Made by a program: the position numbers and the translations under genes
Part shown: piece after piece, positions 3,157-46,876 of the stretch
Numbering within the stretch: position 1 is the stretch's first letter
Layout: every line of letters begins with the position of its first letter
The notes under the pieces: generated by a model
What the model was told of the DNA's origin: nothing
What the model saw: the letters and a program-made list of their open reading frames with translations, nothing else
Database searches by the model: none
Assembly: GCA_903929765.1 (NCBI GenBank)
Contig: CAIYVX010000093.1
Coordinates: forward strand, 1 to 51,076
Length of the DNA: 51,076 bases
Reading direction: 5' to 3'
Origin: an uncultured Planctomycetia bacterium
Lineage (GTDB): Bacteria; Planctomycetota; Phycisphaerae; FEN-1346; JAACEH01

Positions 3157-6100
3157 TTACGCGGCTGCCCAATCCTTGCACAATACTGCGGCCTGCTCTA
3201 GCACCAGATCAGTCGCGCGCTGCTGCATGTCTGGCGGATACCCGTACTTCCGTAGAATCCTTTTAACGAGCACCCGTATCTGGGCGCGGGCATTCTCACG
3301 GACCTGCCAGTCAATGGTGACGCTCTGGCGAACCCTGTTCACGAGTTCCTGGGCCAGGAATCGCAGTTGGTCGTCACCCATTACCTTCCGGGCACTCTCG
3401 TTCTCAGCCAAGGCGTCATAGAAAGCCACTTCGTCATCGTTCAGGCCCAGTTCCTCACCGCGAGTCTCGGCATTCTTGATGCTCTTGGCCAGTTGAATCA
3501 GTTCCTCGATAACCTGTGCTGCCTCGATAGCGCGGTTCTGGTACTTTCGGACCGTCTGCTCAAGCATCTCGGCGAATGACCTGGCCTGCACGACGTTCTT
3601 TCGCATCCGGGTCTTGATTTCGTCGCTGATCAGCTTCTTCAGGAGTTCCAGGGCTAGGTTCCGTTGCGGCAGTTGCTTCACCTCAGCAAGGAACTCGTCT
3701 GAGAGAATCGAGATGTCTGGTTTCTCTAGGCCAGCAGCAGCAAAAATATCCACGACCTCGGTCGAGTAGACGGCGCGGGACACGAGTTGCCGAATGGCCG
3801 ATTCCATCTCGTCGGCGGTCTTATCGGACTCCGATACTGTGGCTTTTACCAGGGCCGAGCGGACCTCTTGGAATAAGGCCACCTCGTCCCGAACGGCCAT
3901 CGCCTTCTCATGCGGCACCGCCAGAGCAAAGGCTTTCGAGAGGGCAGCAACGGCGTCCAGATATCGCTTCTTGCCGTCGGGAAGACTGAGAATGAACTCC
4001 ATCGCCTGGGCAACTCCGCTCATTCTTTTCGCTGCCGCGGCGTTAAGGATGGCCTCGTAGTCAAAGCCGTGGAACATGGCGCAGACGACCTCGTACTTCT
4101 CTATGAAAACTGACGCGGCCTGCTCGAGATCGATGGTCGCTTCGCCCTTGCCGCCACTGGCGACATAGGTATGCAGTGCTCGCTTCAAGGCGTCGGCTAG
4201 GCCTAAGTAGTCAACCACACGGCCACCTGGTTTGTCCCTGAAAACCCGGTTCACGCGGGCAATGGCTTGCATCAAGTTGTGACCGTTCATCGGCTTGTCG
4301 ACGTACATCGTGTGCAGGCTCGGGCAGTCGAACCCGGTGAGCCACATGTCCCGCACGATCACCAGCTTCATCGCGTCGTCGGGATCCTTAAACCGTTTGG
4401 CGATGGCAACCCGGGCGCTCTTGGTGCGAATATGAGGCTGCCATTCCTGCTCGTCTGAGGCGGAACCGCTCATCACGATCTTGACCGCCCCCTTGTCATC
4501 CGCAGCGTTGTGCCAGTCGGGGCGGAGCTTTACGATGGCGTTATACATTTCCACGCAGATGCGGCGCGACATGCATACCACCATACCCTTACCCTGAAGG
4601 GCGCCGAGCCGCTTCTCGAAGTGGTCCACCAGATCCTTGGCGACCAGGCCGATTCGCTTCTCGGTTCCGACCATCGCCTCCATCGCGGCCCACGTGGTCT
4701 TTAGCTTCTGCTTCTCGGTTTCTTCCTCGCCCTCGGTAATCTCCTCAAACTCCGGGTCGATCTTCGGTTTCTCATCCTCGCTCAATTCCAGCTTGGCCAG
4801 CCGCGACTCGTAGTAGATGGGGACGGTATTTTCGTCCTCCACCGCCCGGAGCACGTCGTACTTGTCGATGTAGTCGCCGAATACCGCCGGCGTGCTCTTG
4901 TCGTCGAGTTCCAGTGGCGTGCCGGTGAACCCGATAAACGAGGCGTGCGGCAAGGCGTCCCGCAGGTACTTGGCCATACCGTACTTGATCTCGCCGCTCT
5001 TCTTATTGATCCGGGCGCTGAAGCCGTAATGGCTGCGATGGGCCTCATCGGCGATCACGACGATGTTTCGCCGCGTGCTTAAGGCATCCCCGCCTTCGAA
5101 TTTTTGGAGCGTGGTGAAGATGACGCCGCCCGAAGCCACATGCAGCAACTCCTTGAGGTGCTCGCGGCTTTCCGCCTGGACGGGCTTCTGACGCAGCACG
5201 TCGCTGTTGAAAATGAACGTATCGGACAATTGCTCGTCAAGATCGTTGCGGTCGGTGATAACCACCAGCGTGGGATTCTCCATCGCCTGGTGTTTGATAA
5301 TTTTGCCGGCGTAGAAAACCATAGAGAGGCTTTTGCCGGAGCCCTGAGTGTGCCAGACCACGCCAATCTTACGGTTACCCTCGGGCCGGCTGGCCTCTAC
5401 GGTGCACTCCACGGCCTTCTGGACGGCCCAGTACTGATGGTACGCCGCCGCCTTCTTGGCGATCTCCTTGCCGTCGTCCTCGAAGGTGATGAAGTTCAGA
5501 ACATAGTCCAGGAACCGCTGCTTCTCAAAAATTCCCTTGATCAGAACCTCAAGCTGCACGGCACCCTTCGGCGCCAGGCTCAGGCCGTCCATCGTCCGCC
5601 ACGGCATGAACCGGTCCCACCCCGCCGTCAGCGTTCCCGCCTTGGCATAGAAGCCGTCGGACACGATCAATAGCTCATTAAAGACGAACAGGCTGGGAAT
5701 CTCTGCCTTGTAGGTCTGGAACTGCTTGTAGGCGTGCTGAATTGTGGTCTTCTCTTCCGCCGGGTTCTTCAGTTCCAGGGCAGCCAAAGGCAGCCCGTTG
5801 ATGAAGATGACCACGTCCGGCCGACGGTTCTTCTTCTCCTCGATGACGGTGAACTGGTTTACCACCAGGAACTCGTTGTCGTCGACCTTGTCGGGGTTCC
5901 GTTCGAACAGCCACACCTTGCCGAACCGCTCTCCGTCCTCGGCACGCCACGAAACATCGATGCCGTCCGTCAGCATGCGGTGAAACGCCCGGTTGTTGAT
6001 CACCAGCGAGGGGCTTTCCGGCAGAACAACCTTGCGAATGGCCTCCTCGATGGCCGACGCCGGCACATCCGGGTTGATACGCAGCAACGCACTCCGCAGG

Positions 6101-6249
6101 CGTCCTGCCAAGACAACCTGGCCGTAGTCCTGCCGTTCCGGCGCCTCGCCGTCCGGGGCAATCGTAGGCCCGTGGACATACTCGTAGCCAAGCTCCCGCA
6201 GGTAGCCGACCGTGGCGATCTCAACTTGGGCTTCGTCCAAATAGGCCAT
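3157..6249 (-). CDS. hsdR: Type I restriction enzyme, R (endonuclease/translocase) subunit
   Basis: The 1030-aa length is normal for HsdR. It shows the N-terminal nuclease motif ([19 protein letters not shown], residues 143-161: PD...ExK), Walker A (TQGSGKS, 301-307), Walker B/DEAH (401-404), and the C-terminal superfamily II motifs ([17 protein letters not shown] and QAIARVNRV). The subunit translocates DNA using ATP and cuts it at a distance when the M2S complex finds an unmethylated site. It starts 6 bp downstream of the AlbA_2 gene stop, so it belongs to the same operon. No motif is missing and the frame is intact, so the nuclease/motor subunit should be functional, in contrast to HsdS. 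Confidence 0.97.
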
Positions 6250-6255
6250 TTTCTA

Positions 6256-7458
6256 CTACCTCGGCTTCCAGTTTCCGTCCTTGTCATAGTTAAAGCTGCG
6301 AGCAAAGCCACACGCATTCCACAGCGCGTCAAAAATTGGCCTCATAATCTGCGCCGCGTCAGTATTTAAGTTGTCGATAACCGTATCAGGAAGAATGGCA
6401 GGATCCCGGTCTAATGAGGTCATGCGAGCCGAACGCCGGATCTGGTCGACATACATAACCGCTCCCTTGCATCCAACCACTGCCAGCGAAACCACCACTG
6501 GAGGTGTCAAACCGAACCTACGAAATCCCTCCAAGTATGACTCGACTGCGCGGATGATTTCCTGCTCATAAGCAACACTCGCAATATAGGTTGAATCGCC
6601 CTCGCGCCCAGTGAATTCCGACCATACCGCTTCAACGGTCCCGGTGAAGAATAGCTGACAGTAGCTGGCGTGACTTTGTCCCTTCGAATACCCCCCTTCG
6701 AAGCTCACGAGCCCGTCCAAGTTATACCGCTGATCCCACCCAGACGACTCGATAGGTCTAAAAGCCGCCGTCGGCGCTGACCTATCAGCAATTTCTAACC
6801 GTTCGTTATTCAGGAACGATGGTATGGGAATCAGATGGAGCACCAGCCGTCGGGGCGACGACAGCACGACCGGCGTTTCATCCGCCACGATTTTTCCAAG
6901 CCGATCCTGGCGGAACCGTTGGATACGCTCTCCTTGTGACTCTGTCGCCAGGAATGCCGTTCGAAGCTCACCCACGTCGAGAGGGTACTTGCCGGCCGAA
7001 TGGCGAGAGAAGAACCGGGTAGAGCCCTTGTAGGTGACCATATGCGGCGAAGCGAAGCTCTTAGGAATCCGCAGCAGAATCACGAAACCCTGTCCGTCTG
7101 CTCCCCACCCCGTAATCTCTTTGATTTGCACGCGGAGGCGCGGATCAATGCTGTTCCGGATAGTTTCCTCCAGCCGTAGTTTCGCGTCGTCGGCGGTTGC
7201 GCTTACGATAGGCCGGACGGCCTTGGGTGCCCCAGTCTTTTTGCCTTCAGCATCCACGGCCGCCTTAATCCCATAAATGATGTCGCCGCCAGAGGCGTTG
7301 CCAAACGACGACACGTCGGCCAAGAACTCCTTCTTGTCGGCATCCGAGTTGCCCGGCAACTCCTGTTTATACTCCAACGTCTTCGACTCGACGACACCGC
7401 TCGTGATCAGCGCGTCGATGTCCGCCTTGGTGATGGCATCAGAGTTTTTCTGAATCAT
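6256..7458 (-). CDS. AlbA_2 (Schlafen-type) putative nucleic-acid-binding protein
   Basis: This is a 400-aa protein. The chosen start, ATG at 7458, overlaps the stop of the upstream gene (ATGA); the longer open frame to 7755 is a reading of the other gene in the wrong frame. Residues about 12-60 (ITSGVVESKTLEYKQELP, then FGNASGGDIIYGI) match the N-terminal AlbA_2 domain, in which E and K residues lie in the predicted nucleotide/RNA-binding pocket. The C-terminal half is unassigned. AlbA_2 proteins appear as regulators and as effectors in bacterial defence loci. Here it lies inside a type I RM operon between hsdS and hsdR, which suggests a role tied to restriction, but nothing in the sequence states which. 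Confidence 0.8.
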   Translation of the reverse strand: MIQKNSDAITKADIDALITSGVVESKTLEYKQELPGNSDADKKEFLADVSSFGNASGGDIIYGIKAAVDAEGKKTGAPKAVRPIVSATADDAKLRLEETIRNSIDPRLRVQIKEITGWGADGQGFVILLRIPKSFASPHMVTYKGSTRFFSRHSAGKYPLDVGELRTAFLATESQGERIQRFRQDRLGKIVADETPVVLSSPRRLVLHLIPIPSFLNNERLEIADRSAPTAAFRPIESSGWDQRYNLDGLVSFEGGYSKGQSHASYCQLFFTGTVEAVWSEFTGREGDSTYIASVAYEQEIIRAVESYLEGFRRFGLTPPVVVSLAVVGCKGAVMYVDQIRRSARMTSLDRDPAILPDTVIDNLNTDAAQIMRPIFDALWNACGFARSFNYDKDGNWKPR

Positions 7459-9407
7459 TTGCCTGCCTCCGGTGTCTCCTCCAGTTGCAAACCGGTTGCT
7501 GCCGCTTCCCGCTTTACCAACCACGCCAGCAGCCGCTTCTCCAACTTTTCTCGCATATCCCGCACGGAGAACCCACACAGCAAGTCGATGCCCACGGCAA
7601 CGGCTAACAGCGCCGACAGTATCGTCAGTACCCATCCGCCTACTGGGTTTTTCGACGTTATTCCAAGCCCTGCTACAATGCCAGCAATGATGATGAGGCC
7701 TACCACGGCCGCAACCGCCCAGGAATACCGCCTCGCTTTCCGGACGCACCGCCAATACAAATGCTCCTGGACTTGCCTGCCCCTTTCGCGTTCAGCCATG
7801 AGCTCGGACTGGGTCTGTGCGTGGTCAGCCTGTGTCTTCGCATGCGCAGCCAGCTCGGTAGCAAGCTTCTCGCTCTCCTCCTTCCTAATCTCGGCTTCCA
7901 CGCGTGAGAGTGTTTCAGTAACAGTCAGTGCGGTCAGCGCCTCCTCGTCTCCCAGAGTGAGGCGCATGAGTTCCTCCTGCGCCAGAGCGCTACTCCGCAA
8001 GAGCTGGTGGTCTCTCGGCGTAATCTTTCCTTGCCCCTCAAGCTTATCGATTTCGTTTAGATATTTATCCAAAAGGGCCTTCGAGGGCTGCATAGCCGCA
8101 TACGAGAACGCAAGAAGCTCAGTCATTGGGAGTGATGGCGATCCTAGAGGAGCCTTTAGCCACGCCATATTAGCCAGGCTGAAATCTGTAACGACACTGG
8201 ATACTTCACGTGATTCCTCGTGCTTCTTGCCGTACTCGAACGCGGCCCGCGCAAAACCGCTATTACTACTTACGAGGACAGCTTGTGCCTTCTCAACACT
8301 CAACGGTGCAATGCCGGACCTAAGCACATAGATACTGCGCACCGAATTGATATCATCTTCCCTTGCGCGGGGATTGAAATAGGACACCTCGTCGTCAAGG
8401 ACCATCTCGAAGGCCTTCTCGTCGATCTGAAACTCCTCAATATAACGTGGCGTCTTTACTACATCGATCTGCGCCTCCTTCAATTTTTCTTCAAGCTGCC
8501 CAGCGAGTAATAAGAGGTCGGACTTGGTCGTCCCCTGTCGGCGGACTTCCATGACGATAGTCCCCCGACTGCTTGGGTCTTCTACATGGTTTGCAGCACC
8601 TTTGACCACACGCCCGAGTTCCTCTCGCGAATGGGAGAAAACGGCGACTGTTGCGCCCAGCTTGCGTAGTAATTCGATCAGTTTCGTGGTGGCTGCTTTC
8701 TTAGCGTCCCCTTCAAGCCCAAGGCGGCGCACGACCACAGGGGTATCAAGGTAAAACGTCACGCCCTTGTATGTCTTTGACGCGAATTGCAGATCCGGAC
8801 AGAGCAAAGCGTTGGCAAGCATATGCCCTTGAACCACGACAAGAAAGCTCTCAAATCGCTCGGGATTCGACTTCTGCAGTTCCAGAACGTACTCGCTGAC
8901 CAACACGATATGAGCATCCTGGTTCCCCTTGATGGTCGGTATTGCGGTGCCACGTAGGTACGCCCGCAAACAGGGAATGTTGAACTGCGTCAGGAATGCG
9001 CAGATAGCCGTTACGGCCTCGTCGTGGCTTGTAATTGGTCTTGCTGTGTTTTTGGAGAATTCGATCAGCCCGGAAACCACCGCCTCGATGTGACGGCTCG
9101 CTCGAGCCTTCTCGGTCGCAATGCCGGGGTCGGCGAGTTTACCCGTAATGTGGTAAACACCGAGCTCCTTCTTAAGCGGATGTTTTCGTGCAAGGCGAGT
9201 TAGGACGATCTGCACCGCACGTTCTGGAATTTCAAGGCCAAACTGCTTTCGGAGGTAATCCCGCACCACAGCGTCTGTCACGGGGTCTGGTGTGTGGTCG
9301 ACCAGGACTTGGAGGATAAATGGCCGGAGATAGTCGAGATAATCCTGCCCTTGGTCAACATGGACCTTTAGCATCGCCAAACTTGTAAGCGTAGCCGATG
9401 ACATCAC
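7455..9407 (-). CDS. Unknown membrane protein with PIN-like region, coiled coil and two C-terminal TM helices
   Basis: This is a 650-aa protein. The N-terminal ~90 residues resemble a small winged-helix region (ERAVQIVLTRLARKH). Residues around 225-290 contain TFYLDTPVVVRRLG and a following acidic SREELGRVV. About 100 residues later comes VLVSSNSGFARAAFEYGK. This D...E...N/D spacing is the shape of a PIN-type nuclease fold, which is inference. A long coiled coil (about residues 480-555) precedes two hydrophobic helices (about 565-615) and a basic tail. It overlaps hsdS (stop) and the AlbA_2 gene (start) by 4 bp each. A membrane-anchored, nuclease-like protein inside an RM operon suggests an effector or abortive-infection add-on. 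Confidence 0.7.
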   Translation of the reverse strand: MMSSATLTSLAMLKVHVDQGQDYLDYLRPFILQVLVDHTPDPVTDAVVRDYLRKQFGLEIPERAVQIVLTRLARKHPLKKELGVYHITGKLADPGIATEKARASRHIEAVVSGLIEFSKNTARPITSHDEAVTAICAFLTQFNIPCLRAYLRGTAIPTIKGNQDAHIVLVSEYVLELQKSNPERFESFLVVVQGHMLANALLCPDLQFASKTYKGVTFYLDTPVVVRRLGLEGDAKKAATTKLIELLRKLGATVAVFSHSREELGRVVKGAANHVEDPSSRGTIVMEVRRQGTTKSDLLLLAGQLEEKLKEAQIDVVKTPRYIEEFQIDEKAFEMVLDDEVSYFNPRAREDDINSVRSIYVLRSGIAPLSVEKAQAVLVSSNSGFARAAFEYGKKHEESREVSSVVTDFSLANMAWLKAPLGSPSLPMTELLAFSYAAMQPSKALLDKYLNEIDKLEGQGKITPRDHQLLRSSALAQEELMRLTLGDEEALTALTVTETLSRVEAEIRKEESEKLATELAAHAKTQADHAQTQSELMAERERGRQVQEHLYWRCVRKARRYSWAVAAVVGLIIIAGIVAGLGITSKNPVGGWVLTILSALLAVAVGIDLLCGFSVRDMREKLEKRLLAWLVKREAAATGLQLEETPEAGK

Positions 9408-25538: not shown

Positions 25539-25720
25539 TCACCGACCTGCGCCCCAGATCGCCCGCCAGGCGGCGCTGGCCGCCAGGGTGATGGCCGCGC
25601 CGATAATCAGCCAGACGATGCGGCTCCGCAGCCGTTGCGCCCCTTCCAGCCGGTCCAGCCGCAGTTGAATGCCGGGCTTGCCGTTGCCGCGAATGGCCGT
25701 ATCGAGGGCGTCGAGCTTCT
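25539..25720 (-). pseudogene. Downstream half of a phage membrane-protein gene split by the RIT element
   Basis: Codons KKLDALDTAIRGNGKPGIQL and LRLDRLEGAQRLRSRIVWLI followed by a TM helix and AWRAIWGAGR form the C-terminal 60 residues of a short phage protein. The upstream 20 residues lie at 29233-29292, on the far side of the element. After the insertion, an ATG inside the element (25826) opens a hybrid 95-aa frame that fuses 35 element-encoded residues to these 60, so some protein could still be made. The NGKPG...LDRLE pattern is common in small phage membrane proteins between head and tail genes. Confidence 0.8.
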
Positions 25721-25751
25721 TGTGTAATGCGGAGTCCCGGATTATGCAGAG
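25719..25751. repeat. RIT left inverted repeat, 33 bp
   Basis: It matches the reverse complement of 29177-29209 at 32 of 33 positions. It begins in host sequence shared with the target (CTTGTG), then TAATGCGGAGTC and GGATTATGCAGAG. Confidence 0.92.
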
Positions 25752-25833
25752 CTGTTGCAGGTTGCATTGTGCAGGCCCTATTGGTGCTGGCTGTATTGGC
25801 ATGGACGTTGTCATTGTGCTCTGCATAATCCGG
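25737..25833. repeat. Subterminal inverted pair inside the RIT left end
   Basis: CCGGATTATGCAGAG (25737-25751) is repeated as its exact reverse complement at 25819-25833, with 67 bp between. The arms are perfect over 15 bp. Such paired motifs are typical of recombinase binding sites and could fold or be bridged by the three recombinases. Confidence 0.8.
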
Positions 25834-25854
25834 TGGCTCCTTATGAGTGTTTCT

Positions 25855-26856
25855 TTACAGCAATTGCAGGAACTTCAGCAGTTCGTCGTCAGGCCGGAAG
25901 CGGAAAGCGCCGCCGGACGGTGGCTGAAGCGTTTTTAGGGCCTTTTCTTTCAGTTCGAGGTCGGCGGTCACATAACGGTGCGTCGTTTCAATGCTTTCAT
26001 GGCCCAGCCACATAGCGATGACGGTGACATCCACGCCCGCCTGGAGAAGATGCATGGCATTCGTGTGGCGCAAGGTGTGCGGCGAGACTCGCTTGGCGCG
26101 GATCGACGGGCAGGTCTTTCCGGCCTTTCGAACCGCCTCACGCAGCCGTTTTTCGACTCCCGAACGCGTCATGGCCTGGCCACGGGCGTTGGCGAAGAGT
26201 GGCTGTTCCTGTCGGAGGTGGTTTGCTGCGATCCATTTGCGGAGCATTGTCACCGTGCGCTTCCACAGCGGCAGGGCGCGTTCCTTTCGCCCCTTGCCTC
26301 TAAAATGGAACACGCCGCTCGGCGTCAGTGTCACGTCCGACACGAGCGAGCCCGTGATCTCCGAGACGCGAACACCTGTGTTGTACATGATGGCAAAAAG
26401 AGCCCTGTCTCGCTTGCCGCTCCAAGTGTCGGCGTCCGGTGCTTCCAGGACAGCTTCCATCTCGTCGCGTGTGAGGAAGCCGAGCACTTTGCTGGTTGTC
26501 CGTTTGGAAGGTATTGCCAGCAGGCTGGTGAGGTCTCCAGCCAGCGTTGGCTCTTTCCTCTGCAGGTACATCGCGAACGCCCGAATCGCCGCCAGACGCA
26601 AGTTGCGCGTCGCGTTGCCGTTCTTGTGGGAGCGTTGCAGTTCGTTGAGGAAGCCCATGATGTTCTCCGCCGAGAAGTCACCGACGGTAACGCGGTTGGG
26701 AGCGATCCCATGCTTCTCTTGAAGGTGCCGCAACAGCAAGCACAAGGCGTCACGGTAGGAACGCACCGTGTGGAGGCTGCGTCCTTGCACCTGCGGCAAG
26801 TACTCCGTCAGGAAGTGCTTGAGATGACGTGCGATGTCGCATTGAGAGGTCGTCAT
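25855..26856 (-). CDS. ritC: Tyrosine recombinase, third gene of the RIT trio
   Basis: This 333-aa protein starts at ATG 26856, overlapping the previous stop (ATGA). The N-terminal SAM-like core-binding domain (HFLTEYLPQVQGRSLHTVRS) precedes the catalytic domain with R in NTGVRVSEI, K in FRGKGRKERALPL, HxxR in SPHTLRHTNAMHLL, H in MWLGHESIETT, and the nucleophile Y in THRYV. All six catalytic positions are visible. It resembles XerC/D-like recombinases. In RIT elements the three proteins are always encoded together in this order, suggesting a joint complex. It is the last gene before the left inverted repeat. Confidence 0.93.
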   Translation of the reverse strand: MTTSQCDIARHLKHFLTEYLPQVQGRSLHTVRSYRDALCLLLRHLQEKHGIAPNRVTVGDFSAENIMGFLNELQRSHKNGNATRNLRLAAIRAFAMYLQRKEPTLAGDLTSLLAIPSKRTTSKVLGFLTRDEMEAVLEAPDADTWSGKRDRALFAIMYNTGVRVSEITGSLVSDVTLTPSGVFHFRGKGRKERALPLWKRTVTMLRKWIAANHLRQEQPLFANARGQAMTRSGVEKRLREAVRKAGKTCPSIRAKRVSPHTLRHTNAMHLLQAGVDVTVIAMWLGHESIETTHRYVTADLELKEKALKTLQPPSGGAFRFRPDDELLKFLQLL

Positions 26857-27821
26857 GACAGGCCTCCCTTCCGAAGTCGAAGTCCCAGTGCATCGCAACG
26901 TTTGGAGCACAGTGTCAATAAGGCCGGCACGGCGCTGAGATACCAATACGTCGCAGCCAGATCCACGTGGCCGAGATAGATCGACAGGTCATGGACCGCG
27001 TTGTCAATATTGCGATTCTCTCGATAGGCACGAAGCAGATGGTTACAGGCAAACGTATGACGAAGATCATGCAGGCGAGGTTTGCGTCGTGTGGCGTTCC
27101 CAAGCCCGAGACGCTTGCGCGACCTTCTAAAAGCACACCATATCGATCTGTGCAGGACATGGCCTCCGCGAAGAGAGCGGATAAACGCCCGCGAATCATC
27201 GGAGTTGCCGAATCGCTGGTCGCGGACCTTTCGGTATTGCTGGAGGTGGCGGGAAGCGGAATCGGAGATCGGAACCAGACGCGTCGGAAGGTTCTTGCTT
27301 TGATGTACCGTGAGCACGTTCTGGTTCAGATCAACATCGCCGTCCTTCAGAGCCAGCACCTCGCCGATTCGCATCCCCGTGCAAGCGAGCAGTCCGACGA
27401 TGGTCGCGTTCCGCGGGCCAATATAGGGATCGCATCTCAACGACGGCTGATGGGTAAGGACGTCGCGGATCAACGCCGCGATCTCTCGCCGCGTATAAAT
27501 GTACGGCGGAACACGCATGCCGGTGGGACCGAGCAGATGTTGTGGAGGGATCTCCGTTCGCGGCTTAAACACCACCAGATACCGCGCGAAGTTCCTCACG
27601 ATGCCCAGCCGCAGCGTGTGATAAGTACGTTGTGTTCCTTTCGGGGAGGTGGCCCAGCGCAAGGCCAGGTCCACCGTCAACGGCCCGGCGGGCGCGTGGA
27701 GGTCGGCATACCGCGCAAACGACCGGAGTTGAATGGCCCCCGTTTTCATTTTGTATCCCAGAGAACGTTTGTGCCCCAAATACTGCTCAACCTTCTTCAT
27801 CATGGCGGAGGATGTTGTCAT
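26853..27821 (-). CDS. ritB: Tyrosine recombinase, second gene of the RIT trio
   Basis: The start is ATG 27821 (MTTSSAMMKKVEQYLGHKRS), overlapping the first gene's stop by 4 bp; the open frame to 28298 is not used. The protein has 322 aa. Catalytic residues: R in CTGMRIGEVL, K in VHQSKNLPTR, HxxR in LHDLRHTFAC, H in YLGHVDLAAT, and Y in the following TYWYL. The N-terminal half (YKMKTGAIQLRSFARYADLH) is the core-binding domain. It differs from the other two enough that the three probably have different jobs, though that is inference. Confidence 0.92.
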   Translation of the reverse strand: MTTSSAMMKKVEQYLGHKRSLGYKMKTGAIQLRSFARYADLHAPAGPLTVDLALRWATSPKGTQRTYHTLRLGIVRNFARYLVVFKPRTEIPPQHLLGPTGMRVPPYIYTRREIAALIRDVLTHQPSLRCDPYIGPRNATIVGLLACTGMRIGEVLALKDGDVDLNQNVLTVHQSKNLPTRLVPISDSASRHLQQYRKVRDQRFGNSDDSRAFIRSLRGGHVLHRSIWCAFRRSRKRLGLGNATRRKPRLHDLRHTFACNHLLRAYRENRNIDNAVHDLSIYLGHVDLAATYWYLSAVPALLTLCSKRCDALGLRLRKGGLS

Positions 27822-29059
27822 GGCCGCACCTCCAGCCAGGGCTGCGCCACGGCGCGAAGAGCGGGCAGATCGACCTGGGCGTACAACGTGGTGGTCTGCA
27901 TGGATTGGTGCCCCAGCACGTCGGCAATGCTCTTCAGGCCGACGCCTTTTTGCCTCATTCGCGTGGCAATGCTGTGCCTCAGAATATGGGTGCCGCTGAA
28001 CTTTTCGCCAAGCCCCGCGCGTTGCCAGACATATCGCATCACGCCTTGTAACGCCTTCACCGTAACAGGAGTCCCACGAGGATGGGTATGACACAGGAAT
28101 ATCTCGCGCCGCTGCGAAGGGAGACGCCCCTTCACCAGATAGTCCGCGAGCGCTTTCCCCAATCGCCGTGGCAAGGGCATCTGGTAAGGCCGGCCCGTCT
28201 TGTGGTTGGCAACCTGCACCGTTCCTTCGCGCCAGTCGATGTCGTCCAGCGAAAGCCGGGGAACGTCGCCGACGCGAACCCCAAGATGGATCATGCACAA
28301 AATGGCGGCGTAGTCGCGTTTTCCACTGGCCGTGGAACGGTCAATCGAACGCAGCAGTTGTTCGGTGTCCGCCGATGTCAACCATCGTGGCGACAGGGCG
28401 GCGCGAGGGACGCGGACGGCCGGAACGGCCACCAGAAGGTTGCCGATCGCGACGCCCAACATCCGCAGGAACCGGAAGTAGCCACGCAACGCGGTACAGG
28501 TCTGCCGCCGTCTACAATTGGCACGCCCGTGCGGCAACGCGTCCACGTATGCGTGAACGCGCCTCGCGGTGATGGCCGAAGGTTCGACGGGCCGCTGCCG
28601 GAAGCTGAATGTCAGGAACTGCTCCAAGTTACGCCGATGCCCCTCCACCGTGCCCTCGGCCAAGCCGCGGTTGCGACGCAGATGATCGGCGTAACGATCC
28701 GCCTCCACCCGCGAGGGACTGCGCGTGATGACAGGAGGATGCTCCGCCCAAATCTGACGCAATACGCTGTGAGCCGCCGAATAAGCGAGTTTTCTCTTCC
28801 TTTGGAACTTTTCAGGCGGCTTGGGCACATACCATTGCAAGAACTTGTCCACGTGTTTCGCGGTAATTTGACCGGGCAGCACGTGGGCGGCTTCAAGCCA
28901 CTCGACGAACCGGAATGCGAAGCCCAGCCTGCGCCGAGAGTGCTTGAAGTGGTACCCGTCCGCACAATAGCGTTCGGCGATCTTCTCCAAATAGGGCGCC
29001 AGATAGTTCCGTTTCATCGCGACAAGCCTCTTCCGATTCCGGATGTAATGCTCCAACAT
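27818..29059 (-). CDS. ritA: Tyrosine recombinase, first gene of the RIT trio
   Basis: The preferred start is ATG 29059 (MLEHYIRNRKRLVAMKRNYL), preceded by GGAG; the frame is open to 29098. The 413-aa protein has an N-terminal extension (1-110) ahead of the SAM-like domain. Catalytic residues are R262 (HLGVRVGDVP), K288 in NHKTGR, H358/R361 (HILRHSIATR), H384 (LGHQSMQTT) and Y393. Being longer than the other two at its N-terminus is typical of the first RIT protein. It is transcribed from near the right inverted repeat, so its promoter is probably within the element end. Confidence 0.92.
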   Translation of the reverse strand: MLEHYIRNRKRLVAMKRNYLAPYLEKIAERYCADGYHFKHSRRRLGFAFRFVEWLEAAHVLPGQITAKHVDKFLQWYVPKPPEKFQRKRKLAYSAAHSVLRQIWAEHPPVITRSPSRVEADRYADHLRRNRGLAEGTVEGHRRNLEQFLTFSFRQRPVEPSAITARRVHAYVDALPHGRANCRRRQTCTALRGYFRFLRMLGVAIGNLLVAVPAVRVPRAALSPRWLTSADTEQLLRSIDRSTASGKRDYAAILCMIHLGVRVGDVPRLSLDDIDWREGTVQVANHKTGRPYQMPLPRRLGKALADYLVKGRLPSQRREIFLCHTHPRGTPVTVKALQGVMRYVWQRAGLGEKFSGTHILRHSIATRMRQKGVGLKSIADVLGHQSMQTTTLYAQVDLPALRAVAQPWLEVRP

Positions 29060-29232
29060 GCGTGTTTCTCCACTACGAGGGGTCTCATGACGGGTCACGT
29101 TGACCCGCCTTCAGACCCACAATTATGCGGAGTAACTCGTTCGCATGCCCTGCTGTTGCAGGGGAATCTTCATTTACTCTGCATAATCCAGGACTCCGCA
29201 TTACACAAGTTATGCGGAACTCCACATAACGT
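29060..29232. repeat. RIT right end: 33-bp inverted repeat, subterminal motif and outer palindrome
   Basis: It holds IR-R (29177-29209), a TTATGCGGAGT at 29123-29133 that pairs with ACTCCGCATTA at 29193-29203 (one mismatch), and a 22-bp palindrome at 29209-29230 (GTTATGCGGAA / CTCCACATAAC, arms matching except one C/T). A short hairpin (CCCTGCTGTTGCAGGG) is at 29148-29163. A promoter for ritA must lie here, but no clear -35/-10 is seen. Confidence 0.8.
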
Positions 29233-29292
29233 GTGGATGGACCCGAACTCGCCTTTGCAGACCATTTCGTACCGGTCTCCGTCCTCGCTCAT
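29233..29292 (-). pseudogene. Upstream half of the phage gene split by the RIT element
   Basis: The ATG at 29292 overlaps the stop of the upstream head-tail gene (ATGA). The first 20 codons (MSEDGDRYEMVCKGEFGSIH) belong to the phage gene; the frame then reads 20 further codons into the element and stops at 29170. Joined with 25539-25720 the intact protein would have 80 residues with one TM helix near the C-terminus. Confidence 0.82.
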
Positions 29293-43940: not shown

Positions 43941-46673
43941 TTAAAATGGAATCAGGTCATCATCCGCCGGCACATACTCCGGTTCGGCCGCGCGCACTGG
44001 CTGCGGACCGAGGCGATAGTTGACGATCCGGTCGTATTTCTCGCCGGACACATGCCGCACGGTGACCGCCAGCGTGGGGGCCAGACCGCCGGACTGGGCC
44101 ACGCCAACCGCCTCTTCAGCCGACTCCGGCGCCGGCTCGCCCGACCGCGCCCGCCACCACCCCTCGGCCTTGCCACGAGCGTAGCCCTCGTGCTCGAAAC
44201 AGACCCACTCGCTGACGAACTCGTTCAGGCTGAAGTAATAGTCGACCCGCATGGTGCGGGGATGAGCTTCGTCGGTGCCGCGTTTCTGGTGAACACGGTA
44301 GACGACGTCGAGCACCTCGCGCTCCGTCGTCGTGACCTGGCCCGACAGGATGCCTTCGGTCGTGGCCTGCTGATCGTGTTTCTCCCGCTCCGGCGGCGGG
44401 AACTCATGTCCGCACTCGGGGCAGACGGCATAGGCGGCGTGAATCAGGGCCTGGCACTTCGGGCACTCCTTAGCCGGCGCTTCGCCGGAACCCCCGTCGC
44501 GATCTTTGAACTTCAGGGCATCAACCGGACCATGACGCAGAATGTTGCCGCCGAAATCGAGGACGAGACAGTCGGTCTTGCCGGGATGCAGCCGAAAACC
44601 GCGGCCGACCATCTGGTAATAGAGGCCCGGCGAATTCGTCGGGCGCAGCAGCGCCACGCAGTCGATGTTCGGGGCGTCGAAGCCGGTCGTCAGCACGTTG
44701 ACGTTGACCAGGTACTTGAGGCCCCCGTCGCGGAACCGCTGCAGCGTTTCGGCCCGTTCGAACGGCAAGGTCTCCCCGCAGACGAACCCGCACTCACGGC
44801 TCATGCCCCTCAGCACTCGCTGCACGTGCTGGGCATGCTGTACGCCGGCGGCAAAGATCAATGTCGAATGGCGGTCGGCGGTCTGGTCCACAATCTCGCG
44901 GCAGGCCGAGTAGACCAACTTGTCGTCGTCCATCAGGGCTTCGACCTCGCCGGCGACAAACTCGCCGCCGCGCAGGTGCAGCCCCGAGGTGTCGGCCTTC
45001 AGGCTCCCGGCCTTGCTCCGCAGCGGGCAGAGAAAGCCCTGGACGATCAGCTCACGCACCCCCACTTCGTAGCAGACCTCATTCAGCAGATTCTCCGGGC
45101 CGCAGATCAGGCCGGAGCTCATGCGATACGGTGTCGCCGTCAGACCTATCAGCCGCACGTTGGGGTTGAGCGCCTTGGCCTCAGCCAGAAACGTCCGGTA
45201 CATCCCCTCCCCGTCGGGCGGCACCATGTGAACTTCGTCGATCAGAACGATGTCGAAGCGGTCGAGTTCCGCGGCGCGGCGATAGACGCTCTGAATGCCG
45301 GCCACGATGATCGGGTGGTCGCGGTCGCGGCTCTTCAATCCGGCGGAATAGACGCCGATCTTCATCCACAGGTCCGGCGCCATCGTGTGCAACTTGTCCA
45401 CCGCCTGCTCGAGGAGTTCCTTCACGTGAGCGAGGATCAGGACCCGGCCGTCCCACTTCTCGACCACGTCGCGGCAGATCGTGGCCATGACCGGGGTCTT
45501 TCCGCTATTGTGGTGGACCATGAAGTAGCCATCGAGGTATAGGTGGTCGCCTTCCAGAAGGAAGCCGTAGTATGGCCCGACTCCCACAGGCTCAATTTTG
45601 AACCCGGTTCGCAGGACGGACTTTTTTTGCTTGCGAGCGGCGGGCTGCCGTCTGGCCAGGCGACACGGTACCTCGGTGAAATCACCCCAGATCGACACCC
45701 TAAAATACCAACCGCCCGCGCCGGTCTGGCACGAGCAGTATTTTTCTGTGCAATGCGCGGCGAACCCCAGGCTGCGCACCAGGAACATGAGGTCCGTCGC
45801 CAATTCACGCGACTGGGTGATATAGTCGCCGCCGCTCTTGTTGGCGGAACCGTCGCTGTCCATGAGGCCCGCCAAGAGTGACAGACGGTCGGACCGAGGG
45901 GCCGCCAGGTAGGCGTGGGGAATGAATTTGGTCGCCGAGCACCGGCCGGCCAGGTCCAGAGCAGCCAGGGCCTCGGTGACGACGTTGTACTTACCGACGC
46001 TACGGACCAGCGTGTACGTGGGACACCGGTCACCGTTGGCATTGACGCTGGTTTCACAGCCGAGGAAACGAGCATATTCATCCCAGGCATCGGCTACGGC
46101 GTCGTCCGCCGTAGTCAAATCCACCGTTCCTTCAGTGAATCCCCCGTCGCCAAGCAACAGGCCAAGGATGTACGGTGGAACTGGCAAGTTGGGCCGCAGG
46201 TCGAAGTTTACAGGCACATGGTAGAGCTTGCGCAGGTGCCGCCATGATTTCGACTTGGCGAGATAGTCCGTGACCGAGACGTTGTCAACCTCGCCGCCAC
46301 GTTTCTGGCACGGGAACTCGTCTTTGCCTTCGCTCGTGCAGACCAACGACAGGACGTGGTCCGCATTGACCACAAAAGGTTCTCCGCGATGAGGCGTGAT
46401 CTTGTAGAGTTGGCCTTCGCCGCGACAGAGATTCAGCACCCGGCGCGACTGGCTGTCCGGCCCCATGAGCAGGTCGCCAACCATGACGCTCTCGACCGGC
46501 TTGACCGTCCCGTCAAACATCAGAATCGGGTGCCCCGGCGCATGGCATGCCGTTGGAAGCACCACGCACGGGTGGTTATCCCGACGGCGCAGGTGATCGT
46601 AAACGGCGGCGACCGCCTCCTCTTGATAGGGCCGCAGCGTGATGGCGGCGGATGGCAAGACTGGACTGGTCAT
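43941..46673 (-). CDS. Superfamily II DEAD/DEAH helicase interrupted by an intein
   Basis: ATG 46673 overlaps the previous stop (ATGA). The 910-aa precursor has extein N-part residues 1-42 (ITLRPYQEEAVAAVYDHLRR, then VVLPTA), an intein at 43-389 and the extein C-part from 390 (SGKTPVMATI...). After splicing the helicase has 563 aa, with the P-loop PTASGKT rejoined, a DEVH box (LIDEVHMVPP), GLTATP, and TGFDAPNIDCVALLRPT plus QMVGRGFRLHPGKTDC. A zinc ribbon (CPKCQALIHAAYAVCPECG) and a C-terminal DNA-binding tail follow. Likely a replication or recombination helicase. The first P-loop residue is A where many SF2 enzymes have G. Confidence 0.95.
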   Translation of the reverse strand: MTSPVLPSAAITLRPYQEEAVAAVYDHLRRRDNHPCVVLPTACHAPGHPILMFDGTVKPVESVMVGDLLMGPDSQSRRVLNLCRGEGQLYKITPHRGEPFVVNADHVLSLVCTSEGKDEFPCQKRGGEVDNVSVTDYLAKSKSWRHLRKLYHVPVNFDLRPNLPVPPYILGLLLGDGGFTEGTVDLTTADDAVADAWDEYARFLGCETSVNANGDRCPTYTLVRSVGKYNVVTEALAALDLAGRCSATKFIPHAYLAAPRSDRLSLLAGLMDSDGSANKSGGDYITQSRELATDLMFLVRSLGFAAHCTEKYCSCQTGAGGWYFRVSIWGDFTEVPCRLARRQPAARKQKKSVLRTGFKIEPVGVGPYYGFLLEGDHLYLDGYFMVHHNSGKTPVMATICRDVVEKWDGRVLILAHVKELLEQAVDKLHTMAPDLWMKIGVYSAGLKSRDRDHPIIVAGIQSVYRRAAELDRFDIVLIDEVHMVPPDGEGMYRTFLAEAKALNPNVRLIGLTATPYRMSSGLICGPENLLNEVCYEVGVRELIVQGFLCPLRSKAGSLKADTSGLHLRGGEFVAGEVEALMDDDKLVYSACREIVDQTADRHSTLIFAAGVQHAQHVQRVLRGMSRECGFVCGETLPFERAETLQRFRDGGLKYLVNVNVLTTGFDAPNIDCVALLRPTNSPGLYYQMVGRGFRLHPGKTDCLVLDFGGNILRHGPVDALKFKDRDGGSGEAPAKECPKCQALIHAAYAVCPECGHEFPPPEREKHDQQATTEGILSGQVTTTEREVLDVVYRVHQKRGTDEAHPRTMRVDYYFSLNEFVSEWVCFEHEGYARGKAEGWWRARSGEPAPESAEEAVGVAQSGGLAPTLAVTVRHVSGEKYDRIVNYRLGPQPVRAAEPEYVPADDDLIPF
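45507..46547 (-). mobile_element. Intein with LAGLIDADG homing-endonuclease motifs (347 aa), within the helicase P-loop
   Basis: It begins with C1 (CHAPGHPILMFDGTVKPVES) and ends with GYFMVHHN followed by extein S, as required for splicing (C1, penultimate H, N-terminal splice residue N, +1 S). Block B is GEPFVVNADHVLSLV (H at 64). Two LAGLIDADG-type motifs are visible: YILGLLLGDGGF (about 126-137) and SLLAGLMDSDGS (223-234). Block F, YYGFLLEGDHLYLDGYFMV, is normal. It is inserted exactly between TA and SGKT. A frame-intact endonuclease suggests a recent arrival or active homing. Confidence 0.96.
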
Positions 46674-46876
46674 CCCAACACCTCGTCGTTTTCCAGGTCG
46701 GGAATGTGGTCGCCGTTCTCGCGCACGGTGAAACACTCCTCGCAGAGCCAGACCATCTCGGTCTCGTCGAAGTTGTAGTACAGGAACGGGTCGGGTCCGT
46801 GCTTACAGTCCCGCTCCTGTTTACAGAACTGACATTTCCGGCGCACCGTTCTCTTCTTGTTCCACATTGCAATCAC
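46670..46876 (-). CDS. Small zinc-binding protein, 68 aa
   Basis: GTG 46876 overlaps the phosphoesterase stop (GTGA); ATG 46867 is the alternative. It encodes NKKRTVRRKCQFCKQERDCK, then HGPDPFLYYNF and VWLCEECFTVRENGDH, so CxxC and CxxC pairs spaced ~30 residues apart with an added Cys-His. It likely binds a metal. No family is named. Small zinc proteins next to phage helicases are common and of unknown role. Confidence 0.7.
   Translation of the reverse strand: MIAMWNKKRTVRRKCQFCKQERDCKHGPDPFLYYNFDETEMVWLCEECFTVRENGDHIPDLENDEVLG

Follow-up and report, generated by a model that had tools for sequence, protein, structure and literature searches.

Positions 25719-29235 of the window, the whole 51,076-nucleotide stretch of DNA that was analysed, are an intact RIT (recombinase in trio) element by every defining feature tested. 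The best explanation of its present position, and probably the correct one, is that an intact element, moving as a circle with two core sites, entered a small, conserved phage gene at codons 20-21. RIT elements are widespread. The empty site of the window copy occurs elsewhere in the same genome, and from this copy a layout of the ends was derived that recurs in 73 independent RITs. Judged from the comparison of filled and empty sites, the inserted unit consists of the element proper (E), an inner hexamer (I) and a 20-bp imperfect palindrome (P20), with one copy of a 6-bp target hexamer on either side (F on the left and O on the right).

Genes and identity of the element

The element encodes three tyrosine recombinases:

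27818-29059, minus strand: ritA, tyrosine recombinase of 413 aa, two core-binding domains followed by the catalytic domain (Pfam Phage_integrase, 4e-28)
26853-27821, minus strand: ritB, tyrosine recombinase of 322 aa (Pfam Phage_integrase, 2e-19; RitB clade, support 1.0)
25855-26856, minus strand: ritC, tyrosine recombinase of 333 aa (Pfam Phage_integrase, 3.3e-37; RitC clade, support 1.0)

The genes are codirectional, are ordered A-B-C and overlap their neighbours through ATGA. Among the clades, which were built from the RIT trios gathered in the present analysis, the RitA protein falls in the RitA clade with a support of 0.91. The catalytic set R, K, HxxRH, H, Y is complete in RitA, RitB and RitC. 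In the predicted structure of RitA (mean pLDDT 86.8), the helices of residues 21-106 and 115-200 form two successive four-helix domains in front of the catalytic domain, a call taken from the secondary structure of the model. A double sequential core-binding domain is a RitA feature (PMC8138268). Size and ends agree with what is expected of a RIT (a length near 3.5 kb, 28-34-bp inverted repeats and a palindrome), the values here being 3479 bp, a 33-bp repeat and a 20-bp palindrome.

A sequence-only reading of this DNA had proposed a RIT with three overlapping tyrosine recombinases and 33-bp inverted repeats. The coordinates, the overlaps and the repeat were found again, and the identification is borne out by the ordered trio, the ATGA overlaps, the clades, the double core-binding domain of RitA, the length of about 3.5 kb, the inverted repeats and the palindrome. 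The element is present once in its 3.83-Mb, 116-contig genome, and its past insertion is evidenced by empty sites. It is a diverged and previously undescribed member of the RIT family. The same genome has a second, strongly diverged recombinase trio close to a contig end (L025, G000:C47:32227-35464); a search for an inverted repeat at the ends of this trio gave none, and its ends were not located.

Structure of the ends

On the plus strand, the ends of the window RIT are arranged as CTTGTG - TAATGCGGAG ... CTCCGCATTA - CACAAG - TTATGCGGAACTCCACATAA - CGTGTG, with the following parts:

25719-25724: F, the outer hexamer on the left, CTTGTG; its minus-strand reading, CAC AAG, gives codons 20-21 of the split gene (gapless empty-site alignment)
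25725-29203: E, the element proper, 3479 bp long and bounded by 27-bp inverted ends TAATGCGGAG...CTCCGCATTA; it has an inverted repeat whose register is shared by 73 independent RITs
25742-25751: second recombinase-site-like repeat TTATGCAGAG, 17 bp inside the left end, with a mirror copy at 29177-29186; the 17-bp offset is found in 69 of 73 RITs
29204-29209: inner hexamer I, CACAAG, the reverse complement of F
29210-29229: 20-bp imperfect palindrome P20, TTATGCGGAACTCCACATAA, conserved in position in 73 RITs and not found in empty sites
29230-29235: O, the outer hexamer on the right, CGTGTG; its minus-strand reading, CAC ACG, gives codons 20-21 (empty-site alignment)

The 33-bp inverted repeat (25719-25751 and 29177-29209) is 97% complementary, and the true right end is 26 bp past it, since it comprises CACAAG and the 20-bp palindrome (29204-29229). 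The inner sites are of the TTATG type, one lying 17 bp inward at each end. The 4-bp TGTG that had been taken as the sequence shared by both ends is actually part of a 6-bp hexamer, CTTGTG (25719-25724) on one side versus CGTGTG (29230-29235) on the other. These two outer hexamers agree at 5/6 bases, and the one-base difference may reflect a mismatch in the target or a later mutation.

The split phage gene and its empty site

The gene that the element interrupts has 80 codons and lies in two parts:

29236-29292, minus strand: 5' part, codons 1-19, with codons 20-21 in the hexamer (uninterrupted homologues)
25539-25718, minus strand: 3' part, codons 22-80 and the stop codon (uninterrupted homologues)

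In-silico removal of 25725-29235 gives an 80-codon open reading frame, as had been predicted for this junction, and the uninterrupted gene occurs in relatives. One copy is found on contig C94 of the same genome, in a sister prophage, where the alignment is gapless through CAC CGC AAG versus CAC ACG AAG or CAC AAG AAG. Seventeen IMG/VR contigs, located via the terminase or the neighbouring 125-aa gene, also carry it, again gapless across the junction (IH-x-KLD). Since the empty-site alignments are gapless, the insertion is precise to the codon. The search among related phages that had been suggested did recover the 80-aa gene, in the C94 prophage and 17 viral contigs, aligned gaplessly across the junction; none of these relatives has the 3.5-kb segment as an ancestral part of the gene, and none has an empty site with different junctions.

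The empty site had been described as exactly recoverable, which holds to the codon but leaves one base ambiguous (T at 25720 or G at 29231). The ambiguity falls in codon 21, where the outer hexamers F and O disagree at a single position; the candidates are AAG (Lys, left copy) and ACG (Thr, right copy). The relatives do not settle the choice between Lys and Thr, the residue being Arg in C94 and K, R, E, S, N, G, D or A in others, with CAC ACG (Thr) in L346. The split gene has no Pfam match, and its C-terminal part looks like a membrane segment. No near relative of the window region was found in an annotated phage collection.

The end layout in 73 independent RITs

RIT loci were gathered from plasmids, GTDB genomes and viral contigs. 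Searches of genome contigs and viral contigs with a single RitA protein gave no matches, and a RitB alignment used as the query did recover RIT loci where those queries had failed. Ends were located by a script that scores the register of the inverted repeat, the palindrome and site similarity, and that never compares F with O. The two outer hexamers are identical in 45/73 RITs, a count that, like those below, omits a large minority of RitB loci in which an inverted repeat was missing or the register was poor (truncated contigs, and copies that were composite or decayed). F, O and the reverse complement of I, rc(I), all coincide in 30/73; only F and O are equal in 15/73, only O and rc(I) in 10/73, and only F and rc(I) in 6/73, the window RIT being one of these six. 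The remaining 12/73 have no exact hexamer pair, which counts against the circle model. F and O match on average at 5.15 of 6 positions; the hexamers immediately outside them match at 1.70 and shuffled pairs at 1.71, and unequal F/O pairs still agree at about 3.8/6. Target flanks outside the hexamer carry little information.

Of the 73 RITs, 38 have P20 on the side of ritA and 35 on the side of ritC. A rule telling which outer hexamer is that of the target was sought, and none held consistently: where a cluster had a single matching pair and the inner hexamer belonged to it, its partner was the P20-side copy in 10 clusters and the far copy in 6. Six RITs of about 3180 bp with a short RitA (about 320 aa where measured), L210, L227, L207, L217, L052 and L243, have the hexamer GGCCGA in common in differing contexts, which may mean that target choice is guided by homology.

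Empty sites of other RITs

Two other RITs could be compared with their empty sites at the nucleotide level. L073 lies in a Rhodococcus IS21 transposase gene, and its empty relative, 97.8% identical, has a single GAGGCC; in the filled site, GAGGCC stands on both sides, and P20 and an inner hexamer of another sequence are present as well. The same pattern, with ACCTGC, is seen for L079, a RIT in a Bradyrhizobium IS66 gene; its empty relative is 98.8% identical. On this comparison, the outer hexamer pair is a target duplication in both RITs, one target hexamer being present in the empty sites versus two in the filled ones. P20 and I are present only when the site is filled and so belong to the insertion. 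A palindrome that is part of the target is ruled out by the empty sites. For L053, in an IS66 gene, no empty site was found in PLSDB.

Permuted copies and inherited hexamers

Copies of the same element at different loci have circularly permuted ends and inherited hexamers. In genome G228, three copies read, in gene orientation:

L331: TGTGAT-P20-ATCGCA-E-TGTGAT
L065: CCAGCA-E-TGTGAT-P20-ATCGCA
L064: TGTGAT-P20-CCAGCA-E-TGCCAG

A second set of near-identical elements reads:

L283: CGCCCG-E-CGACCG-P20-CTGCCG
L284: CGGGCG-P20-CTGCCG-E-CGGGCG
L282: CGGAAG-E-CGGGCG-P20-CGGAAG

As read from these strings, both sets can be explained by opening a circle E-s1-P20-s2-E at either hexamer and swapping the one that is used. 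The switch of P20 from one side to the other could instead arise through inversion of E in place.

RIT inactivation of IS66 tnpA and radC genes is already known (PMC2864759). In the IS66 insertions L187 (TAGGAA/CAGAAA) and L244 (CCGCAA/AAGAAA), at a Gly-Arg-Lys-Asn-Trp motif, the unequal outer hexamers, translated by eye, all encode Arg-Lys, which suggests that one hexamer was brought along from an earlier IS66 target. Seven RITs in all (L053, L076, L187, L192, L232, L237 and L244) lie at seemingly the same Arg-Lys-Asn codons of IS66-type transposase genes.

Proposed mechanism of movement

We infer a circle with two usable cores, targeting through partial hexamer homology and homogenisation of the hexamer pair. 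RitA, RitB and RitC would act on 10-bp TTATGnnGAG-like sites, two of which, in inverted orientation, would enclose each 6-bp crossover hexamer. Excision would release E together with P20 as a circle E-s1-P20-s2-E with two equivalent core sites, either of which could recombine with a target whose sequence agrees in part with its hexamer. After integration, one outer side or both would carry the hexamer of the target, and the hexamer that was not used would stay inside and record an earlier target. If the two cores exchanged strands within the circle, P20 would be inverted, and replication would then make unlike hexamers a reverse-complementary pair; inversion and replication of this kind would explain why the inner hexamer is often the reverse complement of the outer one. 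The fuller proposal, that two interchangeable cores surround the 20-bp palindrome, that one hexamer is exchanged per integration and the other retained, and that palindrome inversion resets the pair, is a tentative one with a realistic chance of being correct. If true, it would be a two-core mode of transposition by tyrosine recombinases, and could explain the need for three of them.

The resetting step has a competitor in hairpin or cruciform repair, which would correct the inner hexamer to the reverse complement with no recombinase-driven inversion of P20. The segment E-X-P20-rc(X)-E of the circle would be a near-perfect palindrome of about 52 bp; nothing speaks directly against repair and the sequence data fail to tell it from P20 inversion, yet we consider it somewhat unlikely.

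Another alternative, which we regard as unlikely, is movement of the SE (strand-biased circularizing element)/Tn554 type, in which a one-strand copy-out circle would carry one flank hexamer and a single core, P20 being a mere structural accessory. SEs and GInts (genomic islands with three integrases) do resemble RITs in having several tyrosine recombinases and a 6-bp spacer between inverted motifs, and in bringing the donor 6 bp to a new site (PMC10214605). However, P20 is about equally frequent on both sides, the permuted copies fit two usable cores, and the target hexamer is duplicated in L073 and L079. SE and GInt also have four core genes, including a small Srap/GinD gene, whereas RITs are without a Srap/TnpC-like gene and only three recombinase genes are evident between the ends of the window RIT, whose gene content is thus not that of an SE or GInt; a 20-bp palindrome with a second core is not reported for SE or GInt in the literature compared.

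An assembly artefact, by which a RIT contig was joined into a phage contig, is conceivable in a 116-contig assembly but very improbable, since both junctions follow the 6-bp layout of other RITs and the element, being single copy in the genome, offers no repeat to mis-join. Still more negligible is a palindrome that pre-existed in the phage gene as a repeat or target feature, with the element ending at the 33-bp inverted repeat: P20 does lie outside that repeat, but it is absent from the sister prophage, the 17 relatives and the L073 and L079 empty sites, and it recurs next to RITs in unrelated targets, on either side.

Comparison with known systems

The window RIT has a sister in another phage-like contig, the L252 RIT (IMG/VR 3300010167_001311), 77% identical at the nucleotide level over 3 kb and with the same palindrome. 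It adjoins a tape-measure gene matching that of the window, but since its insertion point differs and its ritC is truncated, it is a separate insertion. Close to it, at 1455-3158 of L252, is an ORF that resembles a group II intron reverse transcriptase/HNH protein, the family being assigned by eye.

In Tn916-type excision, the spacer is of donor-flank origin (PMC10214605), which resembles what is proposed for RITs, but the Tn916 type has one recombinase and Xis, is conjugative and is without a palindrome mini-unit.

Known RITs include ritA1B1C1 and ritA2B2C2 of Cupriavidus metallidurans CH34 (PMC3414803, PMC2864759). They have in common with the window RIT an adjacent trio, ATGA overlaps, separate RitA, RitB and RitC families, a length of about 3.5 kb, an inverted repeat with a palindrome, and intragenic insertion (PMC3414803; PMC2864759). 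The window RIT differs in being diverged, its best plasmid matches being about 39% (RitB) and 50% (RitC), and in lying in a phage structural gene; the 6-bp hexamer layout is absent from the literature compared. RIT ends have been described as variable, with no convincing sites beyond the inverted repeat and palindrome (PMC3414803), and target specificity, the empty site and movement are given as not tested (PMC10214605). The end rules therefore appear new relative to PMC3414803 and PMC10214605, with a partial earlier account possible (Ricker et al. 2013, Plasmid 70:226).

From the layout, candidate core sites, crossover hexamers and copies of the target can be placed at single-nucleotide resolution. 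Because these positions are now available, the RIT mechanism can be tested directly by junction PCR, and annotators can call RIT boundaries to a single base. The inner hexamer is suggested to be a record of the previous location of the RIT.

Prophage context

The phage late region around the RIT has genes for terminase, portal, capsid/protease, head decoration and tape-measure proteins, and the RIT genes are oriented as the late operon. Synteny between the window and the sister prophage (G000 contig C94:83000-100000, L351) extends for about 16 kb, with nucleotide identities of roughly 72-89%. Identity is 79-89% for most of the shared region but just 50% for the terminase protein, which indicates a mosaic. 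Since the split gene is conserved among relatives, its loss may impair the phage; the sister prophage still carries an intact copy.

Adjoining the phage tail region is a Type I restriction enzyme R subunit (HsdR) at 3157-6249 on the minus strand, and the large, overlapping ORFs at 6256-7755 and 7455-9407 beside it may be other subunits; this region is phage-borne or a prophage boundary. At 43941-46736 on the minus strand, a helicase-like protein with Hint and LAGLIDADG matches probably contains an intein with a homing endonuclease.
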